Below, in pieces: positions 3,006 to 8,774 of a stretch of DNA of 8,774 nt. Under the pieces are notes generated by a model, which made no database searches, was not told where the DNA came from, and saw only the letters and a program-made list of their open reading frames with translations. The translations under genes and the position numbers were made by a program. Every line of letters begins with the position of its first letter. Within the stretch, counting starts at the first letter, position 1. This stretch comes from Myxococcales bacterium (GTDB taxonomy: Bacteria > Myxococcota > Polyangia > Polyangiales > Polyangiaceae): NCBI GenBank assembly GCA_020430865.1, contig JAGQIY010001259.1, positions 1 to 8,774 on the forward strand. Reading direction: 5' to 3'.

Positions 3006-4931
3006 CTACTTGAAGCAGTGACGCTTCGGCACGCGGACGCCGTGAGAGTCGAGGATCCACGGCGGGTTGCAGCTATCAACGACCGCCGGTCGGCTAGCGT
3101 GACCGCGCGAGGTGGCAGCCGGATGAACCGCCTTGGGCTTCGCGCTGGGCTCGCTCGGGAGGTCACCGAGCTCGACGACCTCCGTAGACGAGCTGGCGCT
3201 TCCCCGAGGCGTAGGTGGCAACTGGTCCAGTGTGAGCGGCTGCTCCGCCTCCCCCGACGGCGCCGGAGCGCTCGTCGCTGGCTCAGCCCCTGGTCCATCG
3301 TCTCTCTCTTCACCCCCCAGCGCCCAGAGCAGCCCACCTCCCAGCAAGAACACCAGCGCCGCGACAGCGACACCAACGCGCACGGGAGCACGCAGAGCGC
3401 CAGATGCTGGCGCCACACTGAGACGCTCCATGGATGGCGCCGCCTGTGAGGTGAGACTCGGCCGCTCGGCGCCTTCGTTGCCGTGCGGTAGTAACCCGTG
3501 CGACGATGGAGCGTGCACCGATGATCCACGACCCGTCGCAGCGGGTGACAGCACGTCGGTCGCGGCTGTGACCACGTTCGTACCGAGGCCGGTAGCGGAC
3601 GTCACCGCGGTGGGACCGACACCGATCGCCGCAGACGCGCCGCTGGGCTGACGAGCAGCCGCGGCGCCTCCCGACACCGCCGCCAGATCCGGGGCCTGGA
3701 CTCGAGTCAGCGCCTGGGGACTCAGACGTTCGGCGGCGTAGTCCAGGGTGCCGGCCCCGCGACTCGACTGCTCGGGCTGGTTCAACAGCACGCCCACGGC
3801 GGCGCTATCGGGATGCCAGGTGTCAGCCTCGATGTCGTATGCCTCGATCTGTGCGACTCGAGCGGCGCGTCGCGCGAGCGCCGACCCAGCGACGTCCTGC
3901 AGCCAGCGTTGTATCTCCCGGGGGGGGACCACGCCCATGACCTGTTCCAGGGCCTCGGCCATTCGGCGCGCGCTCTGGAAGCGATCCGAGGCGTCCAGCG
4001 CCAGGCCCTGCATGACCACCGCATCGAGCTCCGCTGGTACATCCGGACGGAAATGAGACGGAGGATCCAGAGCGCCTTGAGCGACCAGCTTGACCAGGTC
4101 GTTGGGGTGGTCCGCGCGAAACAGCGGCCGCAAGGTGAGCAGCTCCCACAGCACGACGCTCGCTGCGTAGACGTCCGCGCGGCGATCCACGATTTGCTTG
4201 AACAGCTGCTCTCGAGGCATGTACTCGAGCTTGCCTTTGAGCTGCCCGGTGGCGGTGACCTGGACGCGGTCGTGCGCCATGGCGATGCCGAAATCGACCA
4301 CGCGCGCGAGACCATCTTCGCCGACCAGGATGTTCTGCGGCGAGACGTCGCGATGCACCAGCCCCAGCTCTCCGCCGCTATCGTTGAGCGTCTCGTGCGC
4401 GCCGTGGAGGCCCTCGAGCGCCCCCACCAGGATCCCGGCTGCGACCTGTACGGGCACTTGCCTGTTGCGCTGGCGCAGGCGGTGGATCAGCCGCGAGATG
4501 GATTCGCTCGGAACGTAGTCCATCACGAGCAACAGCTCCCCCGGAGCGCTGACCACGTCGGTTACCGAGACCACGTTTGGGTGGCGAACCCTCCCGGCGA
4601 GTCGTGCCTCATCCACGAACATGCTGACGAACCGTGCCTCCCGCGCCAGGTGCGGATGCAGCCGCTTGATCGCTACGGCGCGGGAGAACCCGACTGGACC
4701 GATCAGGCGCCCGACGTGCACCTGAGCCATGCCGCCAGAGGCGAAGCTGTCGAAGAGCAGGTAGCGACCGACGCGAATCGGGTCCTGGAGTGTTCTGGCG
4801 TGGGGCGCGATGCTGGCGTGGAACCCCGAGTCGGGCTCGCCCGCAGCCGCACCGGCACCCGATGGCGTCGCCTGGGGGGGAGGGAGCACGCTCGCGCGAT
4901 CCTTGGAAATGGGACTCCCCTGCCCGCTCAC
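3006..4931 (-). CDS. Transmembrane Hanks-type Ser/Thr protein kinase
   Basis: A 641-aa kinase. The catalytic domain spans about residues 54-335: glycine loop SGGMAQV (65-71), VAIK lysine K89, helix-C glutamate E108, HRDVSPQN loop (D195, N200), DFG at 213-215, subdomain IX D253 and subdomain XI R317. All residues for phosphotransfer are present and it is an RD kinase, so activation-loop phosphorylation is likely (T226 and T228 are candidates). The usual SPE of YMSPEQ reads PRE here (YMPREQ, 237-242), an odd change, although E241 is kept. Residues 385-515 are Ala/Ser/Thr-rich linker, followed by one TM helix (about 517-538) and a Pro-rich outer segment ending in a 20-residue tail with two cysteines (C621, C639) around NPPWILD, which resembles tails I associate with myxobacterial kinases. 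The GTG start overlaps the FHA gene stop as GTGA and has a strong ribosome site. Cotranscription with an FHA protein suggests a kinase-reader pair. Confidence 0.95.
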   Translation of the reverse strand: MSGQGSPISKDRASVLPPPQATPSGAGAAAGEPDSGFHASIAPHARTLQDPIRVGRYLLFDSFASGGMAQVHVGRLIGPVGFSRAVAIKRLHPHLAREARFVSMFVDEARLAGRVRHPNVVSVTDVVSAPGELLLVMDYVPSESISRLIHRLRQRNRQVPVQVAAGILVGALEGLHGAHETLNDSGGELGLVHRDVSPQNILVGEDGLARVVDFGIAMAHDRVQVTATGQLKGKLEYMPREQLFKQIVDRRADVYAASVVLWELLTLRPLFRADHPNDLVKLVAQGALDPPSHFRPDVPAELDAVVMQGLALDASDRFQSARRMAEALEQVMGVVPPREIQRWLQDVAGSALARRAARVAQIEAYDIEADTWHPDSAAVGVLLNQPEQSSRGAGTLDYAAERLSPQALTRVQAPDLAAVSGGAAAARQPSGASAAIGVGPTAVTSATGLGTNVVTAATDVLSPAATGRGSSVHAPSSHGLLPHGNEGAERPSLTSQAAPSMERLSVAPASGALRAPVRVGVAVAALVFLLGGGLLWALGGEERDDGPGAEPATSAPAPSGEAEQPLTLDQLPPTPRGSASSSTEVVELGDLPSEPSAKPKAVHPAATSRGHASRPAVVDSCNPPWILDSHGVRVPKRHCFK

Positions 4932-6010
4932 TCGTGCCCTCCAGGCTCGGCCTTGAGCAGGTGACGAGGAGCGACAGCACCCTCACGCTCCGCGACCGCG
5001 CGCGCGACGGCATCGCGGACCGTACGCAGCAGCTGGCCAACGTTGCCGGGCCAGCTCTCGAAGTAACAGGCCTCGACGAACTCGACCTGGATCCCAATCA
5101 ATCCCCGCGGAATCACGGACGAGACCAGCAGCGGGATATCCGGGCGACGTTGTTCCAGGCCGGGCAGGGCCACCCGGAGCGCCCCACCGAGCGCTGCTTG
5201 CTGCAGCAGCGAGCTGCCGCCTGCGACTCCGAACAGCAGCCGTGTTCCGAATGTGTTCGCCTCCAGCACGAGCCGATCGAGCTGACTCGAGGAGAGTTTG
5301 TCGGAACGAGTCACGTAGAGTGCCCCCTCGCCAGCACTGCGCAGGGCCCCGCGCACACGCTGATTTCCGAATAGCTCCACCTCGAGCAATCTGGGAGGGA
5401 TCCGGCTGGGATCGAACTCGGCCCAGGTCCGCATCTGACGCCCCGCCAACGCCCTGGCAAAGGCGCGCTTGCCGCTGCCAGGCCCCCCCAAGACGACGAC
5501 GTGGAGCGCCGAGCCAGCGCTACTGTTCAGCGCGTCTCTTACCTCACGGAAGCAGGCGCCACCCAGCAGACCGTCGGCCGAATGCTGCTCCTCTAGCTCT
5601 TCCAGCACTCCACACGTGAACAGACTGCGTCCGACCCGCAGCAGGGCTCCCGGCCTGAGAACGCACTCCTCCACGCGCTCCTGGTCCAGCCAGATCCCGT
5701 TGCGGCTCCGCCGATCCTGCACTCGAAGACCGTCAGCTGCTGGCGAGACGATGGCGTGAGCACCGGAGACGTGTGGGTCGTCCAGCTCGATCCGGTGATC
5801 ACCCCCTCCACCCGGCGCGCCCCGCCGACCGATGATCGCTGGTGACGGGACGGCCTCGACGAGGTGCCGTGAACGCCGCGGCGCGTGCTCCTCGAACAAG
5901 CCCTGGAGCACCCACTGTTTGGTGGGCGCCGGGCGCACCAGGCGACCCCCACGGGACATCCCCGAGGACTCGTCGACCTCACGCACCAAGCTCGTCGTCA
6001 AGGCTGACAT
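4928..6010 (-). CDS. FHA-domain protein with degenerate sigma54-activator-type AAA+ domain
   Basis: A 360-aa protein. Residues about 58-135 form an FHA phospho-threonine-binding domain: GR at 61-62, DPHVSGAHA with S82 and H85, and SRNG with N104 and G105. Residues about 145-335 align by eye with the AAA+ domain of bacterial enhancer-binding proteins: Walker A GGPGSGKR (K181), LEVELFG (209-215), RRPDIPLL (288-295) and WPGNV (320-324). Key parts are lost. The segment between ELFG and the Walker B strand is short and has no GAFTGA loop; Walker B reads GALYVTR where LFLDE is expected; the sensor II arginine of WPGNVREL is G325. No helix-turn-helix follows; the protein ends about 10 residues after helix AVAPRHLLKA. 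It therefore should not activate sigma54 promoters and is better seen as a nucleotide-binding or scaffold pseudo-ATPase. It is first in the operon with the kinase. The start may be M1 or M18; neither has a good ribosome site. Confidence 0.88.
   Translation of the reverse strand: MSALTTSLVREVDESSGMSRGGRLVRPAPTKQWVLQGLFEEHAPRRSRHLVEAVPSPAIIGRRGAPGGGGDHRIELDDPHVSGAHAIVSPAADGLRVQDRRSRNGIWLDQERVEECVLRPGALLRVGRSLFTCGVLEELEEQHSADGLLGGACFREVRDALNSSAGSALHVVVLGGPGSGKRAFARALAGRQMRTWAEFDPSRIPPRLLEVELFGNQRVRGALRSAGEGALYVTRSDKLSSSQLDRLVLEANTFGTRLLFGVAGGSSLLQQAALGGALRVALPGLEQRRPDIPLLVSSVIPRGLIGIQVEFVEACYFESWPGNVGQLLRTVRDAVARAVAEREGAVAPRHLLKAEPGGHE
4937..4942 (-). promoter_or_regulatory. Ribosome binding site for the kinase gene
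   Basis: On the minus strand GGAGGG lies 5 nt before the GTG start of the kinase, inside the last codons of the FHA gene. This near-perfect Shine-Dalgarno fixes the GTG at 4931 as the start and supports coupled translation of the two genes. It is the clearest ribosome site in the window. Confidence 0.7.
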
Positions 6011-6338: not shown

Positions 6339-7208
6339 ATGGTCGCCCTCGCACCGACACAGCCACGTTACGAGGCAACGAAACGGACGCGTCCGTGGAT
6401 GTGCCACGCTCTCGTCTCGGCGATGCTCTTCGGCGTCGCGAGCCCCGCCCACGCGGCACCGGAGGCGTGCTTCAAGGCCTACGAGCTCGGGCAAAGGCTC
6501 GACAAGGATCAACGCCCGCTCGCCGCGAGAGAGCAGTACGTCCGCTGCTCCGAGCTCTGCCCAGAACCCCTACGCAAGGACTGCATCGCGTGGCAGGACG
6601 TGGTGGAGAGCAAGCTCGCGCGGGTGGTTCTGCGCGTCGCGCACGCCGAGGACGAAGTCAGTGTCTATCTCGATGGGCAGCCTCTGTCTCGAGATCGATT
6701 CACGGGACCGCTCGACCAGCGGCCAGCGCTCTGGGTCACCGCGGGGCGCCATCAACTGCGCGCGAAGACCCCAGGCTTCGATGACTACGCGGAAACACTC
6801 GAGTTGCTCGAAGGCGAAGAGCGCCCGATCGTCGTCTCGTTTCACAGGCGCGATGCAGTCACGCCATCCTCGGGCGATCAGCTCGTGCCCTGGCTGGCCA
6901 TCGGCGTCGGCGGGGTAGGGCTGCTCGGCTTCGCGTACTTTGGTAGTCGGGGGCTGGGCGGCAAGTCGGACCTCGACGCATGCCGCGGTCATTGCTCCGC
7001 GGAAGCGGTGGATGATGTCCGGAAGGACTTCCTGTTTGCCGACGTCTCGCTGATCGTGGGTCTCGTTGGCATCGGCGTGGGGACCTTCTTGCTGCTCGAC
7101 TCGCAGGGAGCCAAGAGCGAGCCGACCTCGAGTTCGACTCGCACCTGGATCCAGATCGGCACCCAGGGGCGCGTGTCCGGCGCTTGGGTGGGTGGCGATG
7201 TCTGGTAG
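6339..7208 (+). CDS. Secreted or membrane-anchored PEGA-like envelope protein
   Basis: A 289-aa protein. A basic n-region (KRTR, 15-18) precedes a hydrophobic core and an AHA-type cleavage site near residue 39 (ASPAHA, then APEACF). The following segment (ACFKAYELGQ to about 92) has paired cysteines C44/C70/C74/C82 and a helical-repeat look, matching a common myxobacterial type in which such a segment is followed by a beta-rich PEGA-like domain, here about 96-170 with YLDGQPL and TAGRHQLRAKTPGF. Two hydrophobic segments (about 182-203 and 231-253) flank a loop with C215 and C219. It should sit in the envelope with the N-terminal part outside the cytoplasm. PEGA domains are thought to be structural or surface-layer modules; no enzyme activity is expected. 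The start at M1 keeps the positive charges of the signal; M21 is an alternative. The gene is divergent from the FHA-kinase operon and overlaps the next gene by 11 bp. Confidence 0.8.
   Translation: MVALAPTQPRYEATKRTRPWMCHALVSAMLFGVASPAHAAPEACFKAYELGQRLDKDQRPLAAREQYVRCSELCPEPLRKDCIAWQDVVESKLARVVLRVAHAEDEVSVYLDGQPLSRDRFTGPLDQRPALWVTAGRHQLRAKTPGFDDYAETLELLEGEERPIVVSFHRRDAVTPSSGDQLVPWLAIGVGGVGLLGFAYFGSRGLGGKSDLDACRGHCSAEAVDDVRKDFLFADVSLIVGLVGIGVGTFLLLDSQGAKSEPTSSSTRTWIQIGTQGRVSGAWVGGDVW
6383..6396. repeat. 14-bp perfect palindrome near the PEGA-like gene start
   Basis: ACGGACGCGTCCGT is identical to its reverse complement. It lies within the first codons if translation starts at 6339, or 2 bp before the alternative ATG at 6399. 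It could be an operator overlapping the translation start region. Confidence 0.4.
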
Positions 7209-7941
7209 GCCACGACGCTCGCGAGGCTGGGGGCTCTTCACGTGTTGTGTCGTGAGCTGTAGCCTCACCCAGTCTCTGGACGGCTACGAAGGGCCGAGCG
7301 AGGAACCCACGCCTGATGCCGGAGCCGACGCGGGTGACGCTGGCGGAGACGCGGTCAGCTGTGGGGTCGGTACGAAGCGCTGTGGTCTGAGCTGCGTCGC
7401 GATCAGCGATCCGGACTACGGCTGCACCAGCGAAGGCTGCACCGCGTGCGCGGTGGCATCCCACGTGGAAGCGATCTGCGGCGCGAGCGGATGCGAGCCT
7501 GTCGGCTGCGAACCAGGGTACGCGAGCTGTGACGACGACCTCGGCAACGGCTGCGAGACGCCCCTTGGAACGGCGACCGACTGCTCCTCCTGTGGCGAGG
7601 TCTGTGCGTCACCGAACGGCGACGTCGCGTGCGATCCTCAGGCGCTGCGCTGCGCAATTCAGAACTGCCCCGCGGGCAGCGCCGACTGCAACGGCGATCC
7701 CAGCGATGGTTGCGAGGACACCCTAGACTCCCTGGAGCACTGTGGCGCGTGCAGCGCCACGTGTCCGGCGAGCTTCAGCTGTACCAGCGCGGGCGGAGGC
7801 TTCCAGTGCGCGTGCCCGAACGCTGCGGCGTGCGACTCCGGAAGCGTCGGCGACTGCGTCCAAGGGCTCTGCGTGTGCGGCGGCTCGACGCTATGCGCGC
7901 CAGGGCAACGCTGCCAGGCAGACGGCAAGTGCGGGGAATGA
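7198..7941 (+). CDS. Cysteine-rich lipoprotein with NGCE-type repeats
   Basis: A 247-aa predicted lipoprotein. The start is taken at ATG 7198, inside the end of the PEGA-like gene (11-bp overlap), because it yields a proper signal: a basic n-region RPRRSR, a short hydrophobic core and lipobox VVSC at C21. A longer reading from 7066 would bury this signal. An Asp/Ala/Gly/Pro linker (31-52) leads to a region with 32 cysteines. Two 30-residue units, 107-136 and 160-189, have identical cysteine spacing (C111/C119/C129/C132/C136 and C164/C172/C182/C185/C189), with DLGNGCET and DPSDGCED as the signatures. This repeat is widespread in myxobacterial surface proteins and is often misnamed an enzyme. 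The C-terminal part (204-245) is another compact cysteine-rich stretch, EGF-like in spacing only. It is likely translated together with the PEGA-like protein and placed on the envelope surface. The binding partner is unknown. Confidence 0.85.
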   Translation: MSGRPRRSRGWGLFTCCVVSCSLTQSLDGYEGPSEEPTPDAGADAGDAGGDAVSCGVGTKRCGLSCVAISDPDYGCTSEGCTACAVASHVEAICGASGCEPVGCEPGYASCDDDLGNGCETPLGTATDCSSCGEVCASPNGDVACDPQALRCAIQNCPAGSADCNGDPSDGCEDTLDSLEHCGACSATCPASFSCTSAGGGFQCACPNAAACDSGSVGDCVQGLCVCGGSTLCAPGQRCQADGKCGE

Positions 7942-7961: not shown

Positions 7962-8774
7962 CTAGCAGCGGCGACGTAGCACGATCAGCCCCAGCGCACC
8001 GACCAGGGACAGCAGACCAACGGGGCTCGAGCCGCGCCGGGCTCCGGCGACGCTGCAGCCGCCGTCGTCGCTGACGATACGCGTCCCTGGGCCCGCACCT
8101 ACTTGCCCCGCGGAACCACCTACGTCGGCCTTGCCGCCGCCCCCGGGCCAGCCGCCTGGCGCACCGCCCGCGCCGCCCCAGTCTCGAGCACCGGCGCCGG
8201 AGCTCCCGCCGGCCTCGCTTCCCCCGCTGCCACCACTCGCGTCGCATTGCACGACCCGGTAGCTGATCCACATCTCGGGCCCGAACCACTCCCGGGCCTC
8301 GTCCAGGAGCTGCCAGCGCGTCACGTAGACGCCCGGCTCCTGAGGGGCGGTGCCGGAGAGGTCGAAGCGAGTCTTCGCGTTGGGCGCCACGCTGGCGTTG
8401 CTCGCCTGGTTCACGGAGACGCGATGCGTCCCCAGGAAAGGATCGTCGGTGTCGCCCGGGACCCCCAGCCGGATGGACTCACCCACGCCGCTGCCGCCGC
8501 CATCGGTCCAGCTCGCTCCGCCAACGTTCTTCACCTCGAACCAGGAGTCGACCGCGTCTCCCGCGCAGACCTCGTAGTAGGCCTCACCCGAGTCGTCTGC
8601 GCTTGCGCTGCTGCCCTGATCCACGAACTCGGCGTCCAGCGCGGGCAACGGAGGTTCAGGGGGGGAGATACAGCTGCCCGTCGCTTGCAGCAGCTCGATG
8701 TCGGAGCCGTAGAAGAACTGCAGGATCCGCTGGTAGTCGTAGCCCTTGGAGTTCTCGAGGCAGCGCGCCCCCCA
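7962..8774 (-). CDS. SpoIID-like / NBR1-Ig surface protein with MYXO-CTERM-like tail (partial, 5' end outside window)
   Basis: The last 270 residues of a protein that begins beyond the right edge. The first 35 visible residues (WGARCLENSKGYDYQRILQF, then FYGSDIELLQ and a cysteine) resemble the end of a SpoIID/LytB-type peptidoglycan-acting domain, where Y..IL..FYG is typical. Residues about 66-176 match the NBR1-type Ig domain: SWFEVKNVGGASWT, the VAPNAKTRFDLSGTAP strand, EPGVYVTRWQL and EWFGPEMWISYRV. A Gly/Ser/Ala linker (180-233) follows, then GGCSVAGARRGSS, a hydrophobic helix and LRRRC at the end. This tail fits the MYXO-CTERM sorting signal handled by myxosortase in myxobacteria, so the protein is probably displayed on the cell surface. 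The in-frame TTG at 8648 is an internal leucine, not a start. The gene converges on the lipoprotein gene with 20 bp between stops. Confidence 0.85.
   Translation of the reverse strand, partial: WGARCLENSKGYDYQRILQFFYGSDIELLQATGSCISPPEPPLPALDAEFVDQGSSASADDSGEAYYEVCAGDAVDSWFEVKNVGGASWTDGGGSGVGESIRLGVPGDTDDPFLGTHRVSVNQASNASVAPNAKTRFDLSGTAPQEPGVYVTRWQLLDEAREWFGPEMWISYRVVQCDASGGSGGSEAGGSSGAGARDWGGAGGAPGGWPGGGGKADVGGSAGQVGAGPGTRIVSDDGGCSVAGARRGSSPVGLLSLVGALGLIVLRRRC

Follow-up and report, generated by a model that had tools for sequence, protein, structure and literature searches.

What might an enhancer-binding protein (EBP) do once the parts with which it acts on sigma54 are gone? The question is raised by an 8,774-nucleotide stretch of a Polyangia genome (Myxococcales bacterium, GenBank assembly GCA_020430865.1, contig JAGQIY010001259.1; hereafter the window), in which a single open reading frame (ORF; 4928..6010) encodes a 360-residue protein, P0001, with an FHA domain followed by a reduced sigma54-type AAA+ domain. 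The gene is placed between a divergent gene for a PEGA-like membrane protein and the gene of a transmembrane Ser/Thr kinase; all coordinates given for P0001 and the kinase are on the minus strand. FHA-type sigma54 EBPs of myxobacteria were reportedly described by Jelsbak et al. in 2005, and P0001 is most likely a gutted protein of this type, its ancestor being pointed to by intact relatives at syntenic loci. Judging from the sequence comparisons below, it has probably been neofunctionalised and is now a stoichiometric, phosphothreonine-dependent partner of the kinase with which it is co-translated.

The FHA protein and its losses

Pfam recovers an FHA domain at residues 59–127 of P0001 (5630..5836; E 2e-9) and a partial Sigma54_activat match confined to residues 154–223 (E 2.8e-6; profile positions 8–78 of 168), and the lid gives a sub-threshold match. 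An original prediction, made from the DNA letters alone, had recognized the remains of an EBP by four landmarks, and all of them are found: the P-loop GGPGSGKR (residues 175–182; 5465..5488), LEVELFG (209–215), RRPDIPLL (288–295) and WPGNV (320–324). The FHA residues R62, S82, H85, S102, N104 and G105 are invariant in the clade described below, and the R, S, H and N-G are presumably phosphothreonine-site residues. AlphaFold still predicts an EBP-type AAA+ fold for the protein, with a confidence score (pLDDT) mostly above 90 in the core. We favour the ATG at 6010 as the start because an N-terminal TTS is common to P0003–P0006; the database record P0002 begins 17 codons later.

The AAA+ core (residues 152–283; 5162..5557) is shrunken. 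Alignment to intact FHA-EBPs shows that the L1 loop with its GAFTGA motif has gone through a deletion of ~9 residues, and that P0001 is also short of ~10 residues at L2 and ~10 at the position of FRxDLxxRL, which we take to be the arginine-finger segment. The Walker B remnant GALYVTRS (residues 229–236; 5303..5326) has TR at 234–235 in place of the DE of intact relatives, and G325 in the lid (residues 284–345; 4976..5161) stands where these have the sensor II arginine. The losses of GAFTGA, the Walker B acids, the sensor II arginine and the DNA-binding domain had all been predicted and are reproduced here, and those of L2 and the arginine finger are added to them. For comparison, PMC7175178 names R299 of NtrC1 and R168 of PspF as arginine fingers.

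P0001 thus has the EBP-type AAA+ fold of bacterial EBPs (bEBPs) but none of GAFTGA, the Walker B DE, the arginine finger, the sensor II arginine or the C-terminal DNA-binding domain, and it does not qualify as a bEBP, although most likely descended from one. Because the loop, the fingers and the Walker B acids are lost, ATP-driven remodelling of the sigma54 holoenzyme should be impossible for P0001, judging from EBP biochemistry; we know of no route by which ATP could drive sigma54 remodelling once L1, the fingers and these acids are gone. Because the helix-turn-helix (HTH) is lost, the protein should also be unable to sit at an enhancer.

Relatives with the same losses

A protein search with P0001 (~8000 candidates scored) gave 23 matches, in which a clade is formed by P0002, the window protein's own shorter record, and P0003–P0008. 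Being only part of P0001, P0002 was left out of the clade alignment (A2), and the seven rows, P0001 and P0003–P0008, are the known members, 39–85% identical. A profile search with A2 (25 matches, again ~8000 candidates scored) gave no new close clade member, and no relative of P0001 was found in viral contigs. One of the members is encoded on L001, a contig of 5.6 kb from a metagenome-assembled Polyangia genome. With six candidates scored in each of 317 genomes of L001's class, that genome alone gave a clade member (E 3.4e-192), and the matches ranking after it are intact FHA-EBPs, from G212, G221 and G219 (3.7e-39 at best). The second of the two genome-contig loci, L002 from Arthrobacter, is a weak match (25%) and was dropped.

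The losses are consistent across the clade. GAFTGA is absent from all seven proteins, the Walker B DE position is TR or SR and the sensor II position Gly or Ser in every one, and the L2 and arginine-finger segments are deleted. The proteins stop after the lid with no C-terminal region, and Pfam detects no HTH family in any of the seven at E 0.01. A Pfam FHA domain is found in each (7/7), and the P-loop lysine is retained in six, with Arg in P0007. It had been stated beforehand that close homologues retaining GAFTGA and Walker B would betray a sequencing error or a recent pseudogene; none of the six clade relatives is of that kind. Loss of sigma54 activation in the P0001 clade is strongly supported by these comparisons.

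Invariant positions in A2 number 26/104 in the FHA region, 37/148 in the AAA core and preceding linker, 32/62 in the lid, which is the most conserved part, and 0/31 in the N-terminal extension. Across 360 aligned codons the FHA genes of the window and L001 differ at 26, 18 and 55% of first, second and third positions, respectively. Because of the conserved positions and the third-position excess of differences we conclude that the gene is maintained by selection.

Outside the clade, P0009 is an FHA-EBP without GAFTGA in which the Walker B DE is kept and the chain continues C-terminally past the lid; it is perhaps an independent, earlier stage of a similar loss.

Intact FHA-EBPs and the likely ancestor

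Intact relatives of P0001 start only at ~30% identity. At E 1e-110 intact FHA-EBPs are present at at least 30 loci (L041–L070) in 13 of the 317 genomes; with five candidates scored per genome, these counts are lower bounds. The Walker B DE is present in all 30, as are a GAFTGA-type loop (29 by pattern, the last by eye), the arginine-finger segment (29 by pattern; L065 as FRADLLFRF) and the sensor II arginine (26 by pattern, four by eye). The loop is mostly GAFSGS or GAFSGA, and GAFSSS in three, rather than GAFTGA itself; among the 29 parsed there are 13 GAFSGS and 10 GAFSGA, and the 30th is also GAFSGS.

The gene order of the window recurs. L001 has the same layout, with a PEGA-like protein, FHA protein and kinase 70%, 68% and 75% identical to those of the window, and homologues of the PEGA-like gene (6339..7208, plus strand; weak Pfam PEGA match, E 0.027, below cut-off) are in the flanks of 7 of the 30 intact FHA-EBP loci, at 31–37% identity. 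L091, L092 and L093 have the divergent PEGA-like gene, the FHA-EBP gene and then directly a kinase gene on the same strand as the FHA-EBP, as in an operon. In L037, L038, L039 and L095 the PEGA-like and FHA-EBP genes are divergent and the kinase lies ~1–5 kb off, on the other strand from the EBP, and the order in L096 deviates, with a PEGA-like gene (27%), a kinase and then a divergent EBP. Among 26 intact FHA-EBP matches from nine genomes, 10 have a kinase match (E 1e-85 or better) located within ~6 kb, and 16 are without one.

A tree of 50 proteins (the seven decayed ones, the 30 intact loci and 13 others) supports the decayed clade at 100/100 on a branch of length 2.03. As the tree leaves the placement of this clade undecided, shared gene order is the main evidence for an ancestor among the FHA-EBPs of these PEGA-like/kinase modules. 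In profile comparisons the clade scores highest (242) with A3, a set of four intact FHA-EBPs (three from PEGA-like module loci, and P0027), and 215 and 209 with other FHA-EBP sets; the A3 proteins were chosen among the clade's best matches, so the top score is partly by construction. The losses and the intact relatives at syntenic loci together bear out the view from which the analysis started, that this is a former FHA-EBP unfit for sigma54 holoenzyme remodelling.

The adjoining kinase and its linker motif

The kinase gene (3006..4931) encodes 641 residues (Pkinase, E 4.2e-27) with intact VAIK, HRD and DFG residues, and the catalytic Lys, HRD and DFG are invariant in eight aligned kinases. 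It starts with a GTG in a 4-bp overlap with the FHA stop codon, in line with the co-translation originally proposed. Hydropathy predicts a transmembrane segment at residues 514–537 (3321..3392).

A search with this kinase (~8000 candidates scored) was evaluated over the best 120 of 4880 matches. The first seven have query coverages of 92–100% and consist of five at 73–100% identity, among them the window's kinase itself, plus two at 57–60%; in those that follow coverage is mostly about half, with the exception of P0068 (92% coverage at 41%). Among these best matches the five-plus-two split mirrors that of the FHA proteins. The closest FHA pair, P0004/P0006, is 85% identical compared with 89% for the closest kinase pair, P0043/P0044, and the FHA pair P0007/P0008 (66%) corresponds to the kinase pair P0046/P0047 (72%).

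The cytoplasmic linker between the kinase domain and the membrane (residues 364–513) is unconserved in the seven kinases except for one motif, TLDYAAERLSPQALTRVQAPDL (residues 395–416; 3684..3749), in which 15 of 22 positions are invariant as against 5 of 128 outside it. The motif contains T395, S404 and T409 and is our proposed docking site. Its consensus, TLDYAA...ALTRV.AP.L, is present in 7 of the 120 best matches, which are the seven orthologues, and in none of ten kinases from EBP-bearing genomes (two of those ORFs being short or cut).

In a kinase tree a kinase fragment of genome G250, L097, joins the kinases of the window and L001 (93/96), and a separate group of 12 (95/74) includes L096, which is near an FHA-EBP; the kinases adjoining FHA-EBPs form no single supported clade. 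Two further conserved islands lie beyond the membrane helix. The C terminus (window 3009–3071) has a conserved C.PP...D..GVRVPK..CF, a looser form of which occurs in other kinases of these Polyangia genomes, and EVVELGDL..E (window 3132–3191) is part of a segment with 10 of 20 invariant positions at residues 581–600.

Proposed function and alternatives

The protein probably descends from a complete sigma54 activator (FHA-AAA+-HTH) whose gene had that of a PEGA-like membrane protein on one side and that of a transmembrane Ser/Thr kinase on the other. The clade's lineage has lost the sigma54-contacting loop, L2, the arginine fingers, the Walker B acids, the sensor II arginine and the DNA-binding domain, and is left with the FHA domain and its putative phosphothreonine site, usually the P-loop, and the strongly conserved lid. 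We suggest that the kinase autophosphorylates a threonine of its own linker motif, T395 or T409, that the FHA domain docks on this phosphothreonine, and that the AAA+/lid part may act as a non-hydrolysing scaffold or a nucleotide-sensing regulator. Phospho-dependent docking is the simplest function because the FHA site is kept and the co-translated kinase has a threonine-containing linker. The phospho-dependent scaffold originally envisaged is consistent with the kept FHA residues, the matching sets of seven FHA proteins and seven kinases, and the conserved linker motif; the interaction itself is one that we infer. A more specific version, in which the former activator has become a dedicated kinase subunit, with the FHA domain locked onto the autophosphorylated linker and the dead AAA+ core sensing nucleotide through its P-loop without hydrolysis, is put forward only tentatively; what was once an output to transcription would then control, after translation, the kinase from which it used to receive its signal.

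If the proposal is correct, the locus would show how a transcription factor became a signalling subunit, with the earlier state still represented by intact counterparts at similar loci elsewhere. The linker motif makes the docking idea directly testable with two phosphopeptides.

Several observations weigh against this account. In the unconstrained EBP tree the decayed clade falls outside the subclade containing the module loci; holding it with nine EBPs (the seven PEGA-flanked ones plus L047 and L060) costs 3.62 log units (approximately unbiased [AU] test, p 0.413) and holding it with a wider set of 28 costs 0.79 (AU p 0.481), and as neither is rejected the tree neither supports nor rejects descent from the module FHA-EBPs. 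Adjacency of the FHA and kinase genes is seen directly at two loci, the window and L001 (5617 bases), and at a third we only infer it, from FHA and kinase records with an equal longest contig of 1599342 bases. In the remaining pairs these lengths differ, but the window's own pair differs too (7498 and 203610), so that a mismatch carries no information. L097, which of all other kinases lies nearest in the tree, has no adjoining FHA gene, and this speaks against tying the kinase subgroup strictly to the FHA proteins. The seven species are one lineage, so that the seven-to-seven match of FHA proteins and kinases counts as little more than one evolutionary event, and the linker motif could dock something else.

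Other explanations of the protein can be set against a kinase-docking partner. An EBP without output might still act on sigma54 transcription as a dominant negative, by entering the ring of an intact FHA-EBP in its own cell and poisoning or tuning it. The AAA+ fold and lid are retained, G001, the host of one clade member, also has an intact FHA-EBP (L051, E 5.5e-125), and EBP hetero-oligomers are said to have been reported by Volz in 2012; nonetheless, the trans-contact segment that carries the arginine finger is deleted, and at the two loci seen the gene adjoins a kinase and not an intact EBP gene, so we regard such a role as unlikely. About as improbable, and perhaps slightly more so, is a free-standing phosphoprotein adaptor for some other partner, such as the PEGA-like protein or a kinase substrate, for which adjacency to the kinase would reflect co-expression only. 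FHA domains bind many partners and the PEGA-like neighbour is conserved too, but the linker motif is specific to the kinases of this lineage among those examined.

Decay without function is a still poorer explanation of P0001 than these. Many catalytic residues are gone, as in a recent pseudogene or a sequencing artefact, but the frame is intact, the same losses occur in all seven members, differences are in excess at third codon positions and the lid is highly conserved; we consider this scarcely credible and have rejected it. It is also very unlikely that P0001 is a sigma54-independent transcription regulator resembling the GAFTGA-less NtrC of Caulobacter or Rhodobacter: bEBPs without GAFTGA are known to act at sigma70 promoters (PMC10274813, a preprint), but the known cases bind DNA, whereas the clade proteins end at the lid and lack any HTH detectable as above.

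Relation to known systems

P0001 resembles the myxobacterial FHA-type sigma54 EBPs in its succession of FHA domain, sigma54-type AAA+ domain and lid, and the gene neighbourhood of some intact Polyangia members matches, but it differs from them in being without GAFTGA, L2, arginine finger, Walker B acids, sensor II arginine and HTH. Among kinases, StkP offers a partial parallel, and to our knowledge no FHA partner is encoded beside it. According to PMC12077195, the cytoplasmic stretch that links the kinase domain of StkP to its membrane helix contains threonine, as here, and its juxtamembrane threonine is phosphorylated, which is a precedent for the proposed docking site; StkP differs in having extracellular PASTA domains. 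A second precedent is mycobacterial MupFHA, an FHA protein encoded near the Ser/Thr kinase PknQ, although in PMC4238996 MupFHA is not described as EBP-derived and its FHA domain is modelled on the kinase activation loop and not on a linker motif. The NtrC proteins of Caulobacter and Rhodobacter share with P0001 a deletion of the L1 loop of the EBP AAA+ domain that is kept through a lineage, but, according to the preprint (PMC10274813), they are DNA-binding regulators at sigma70 promoters, whereas P0001 has also lost the catalytic acids and the DNA-binding part. Loss of GAFTGA alone is therefore known in EBPs, and what is unusual here is the loss of the whole output machinery within a kinase operon. 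An open-access literature search over titles and the abstracts shown, with subscription papers mostly outside its scope, gave no description of this type of protein.

Neighbouring genes

A simple scan for the –24/–12 consensus tells nothing either way about sigma54 autoregulation between the divergent genes. Nine divergent regions, with 120 bases added on each side, yield a single 10/13 match in the window, a single one in L037 and nothing in the remaining seven, and the background in the nine sequences (140,390 bases) is 56 matches of 10/13, 13 of score 11 and one of score 12.

Following the PEGA-like gene on the plus strand, window 7066–7941 encodes a Cys-rich protein without a Pfam match that is 68% identical over 248 residues to a protein in L001. 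The minus-strand gene at 7962–8774 encodes an N_BRCA1_IG domain protein with a MYXO-CTERM-like end (sub-threshold), and proteins with stretches like it are also encoded near the intact FHA-EBPs of L037, L038, L039 and L095. Elsewhere in the window, plus-strand genes encode a protein with weak zinc-ribbon matches below cut-offs (44–814) and a PAP2-superfamily membrane protein (1242–2267).

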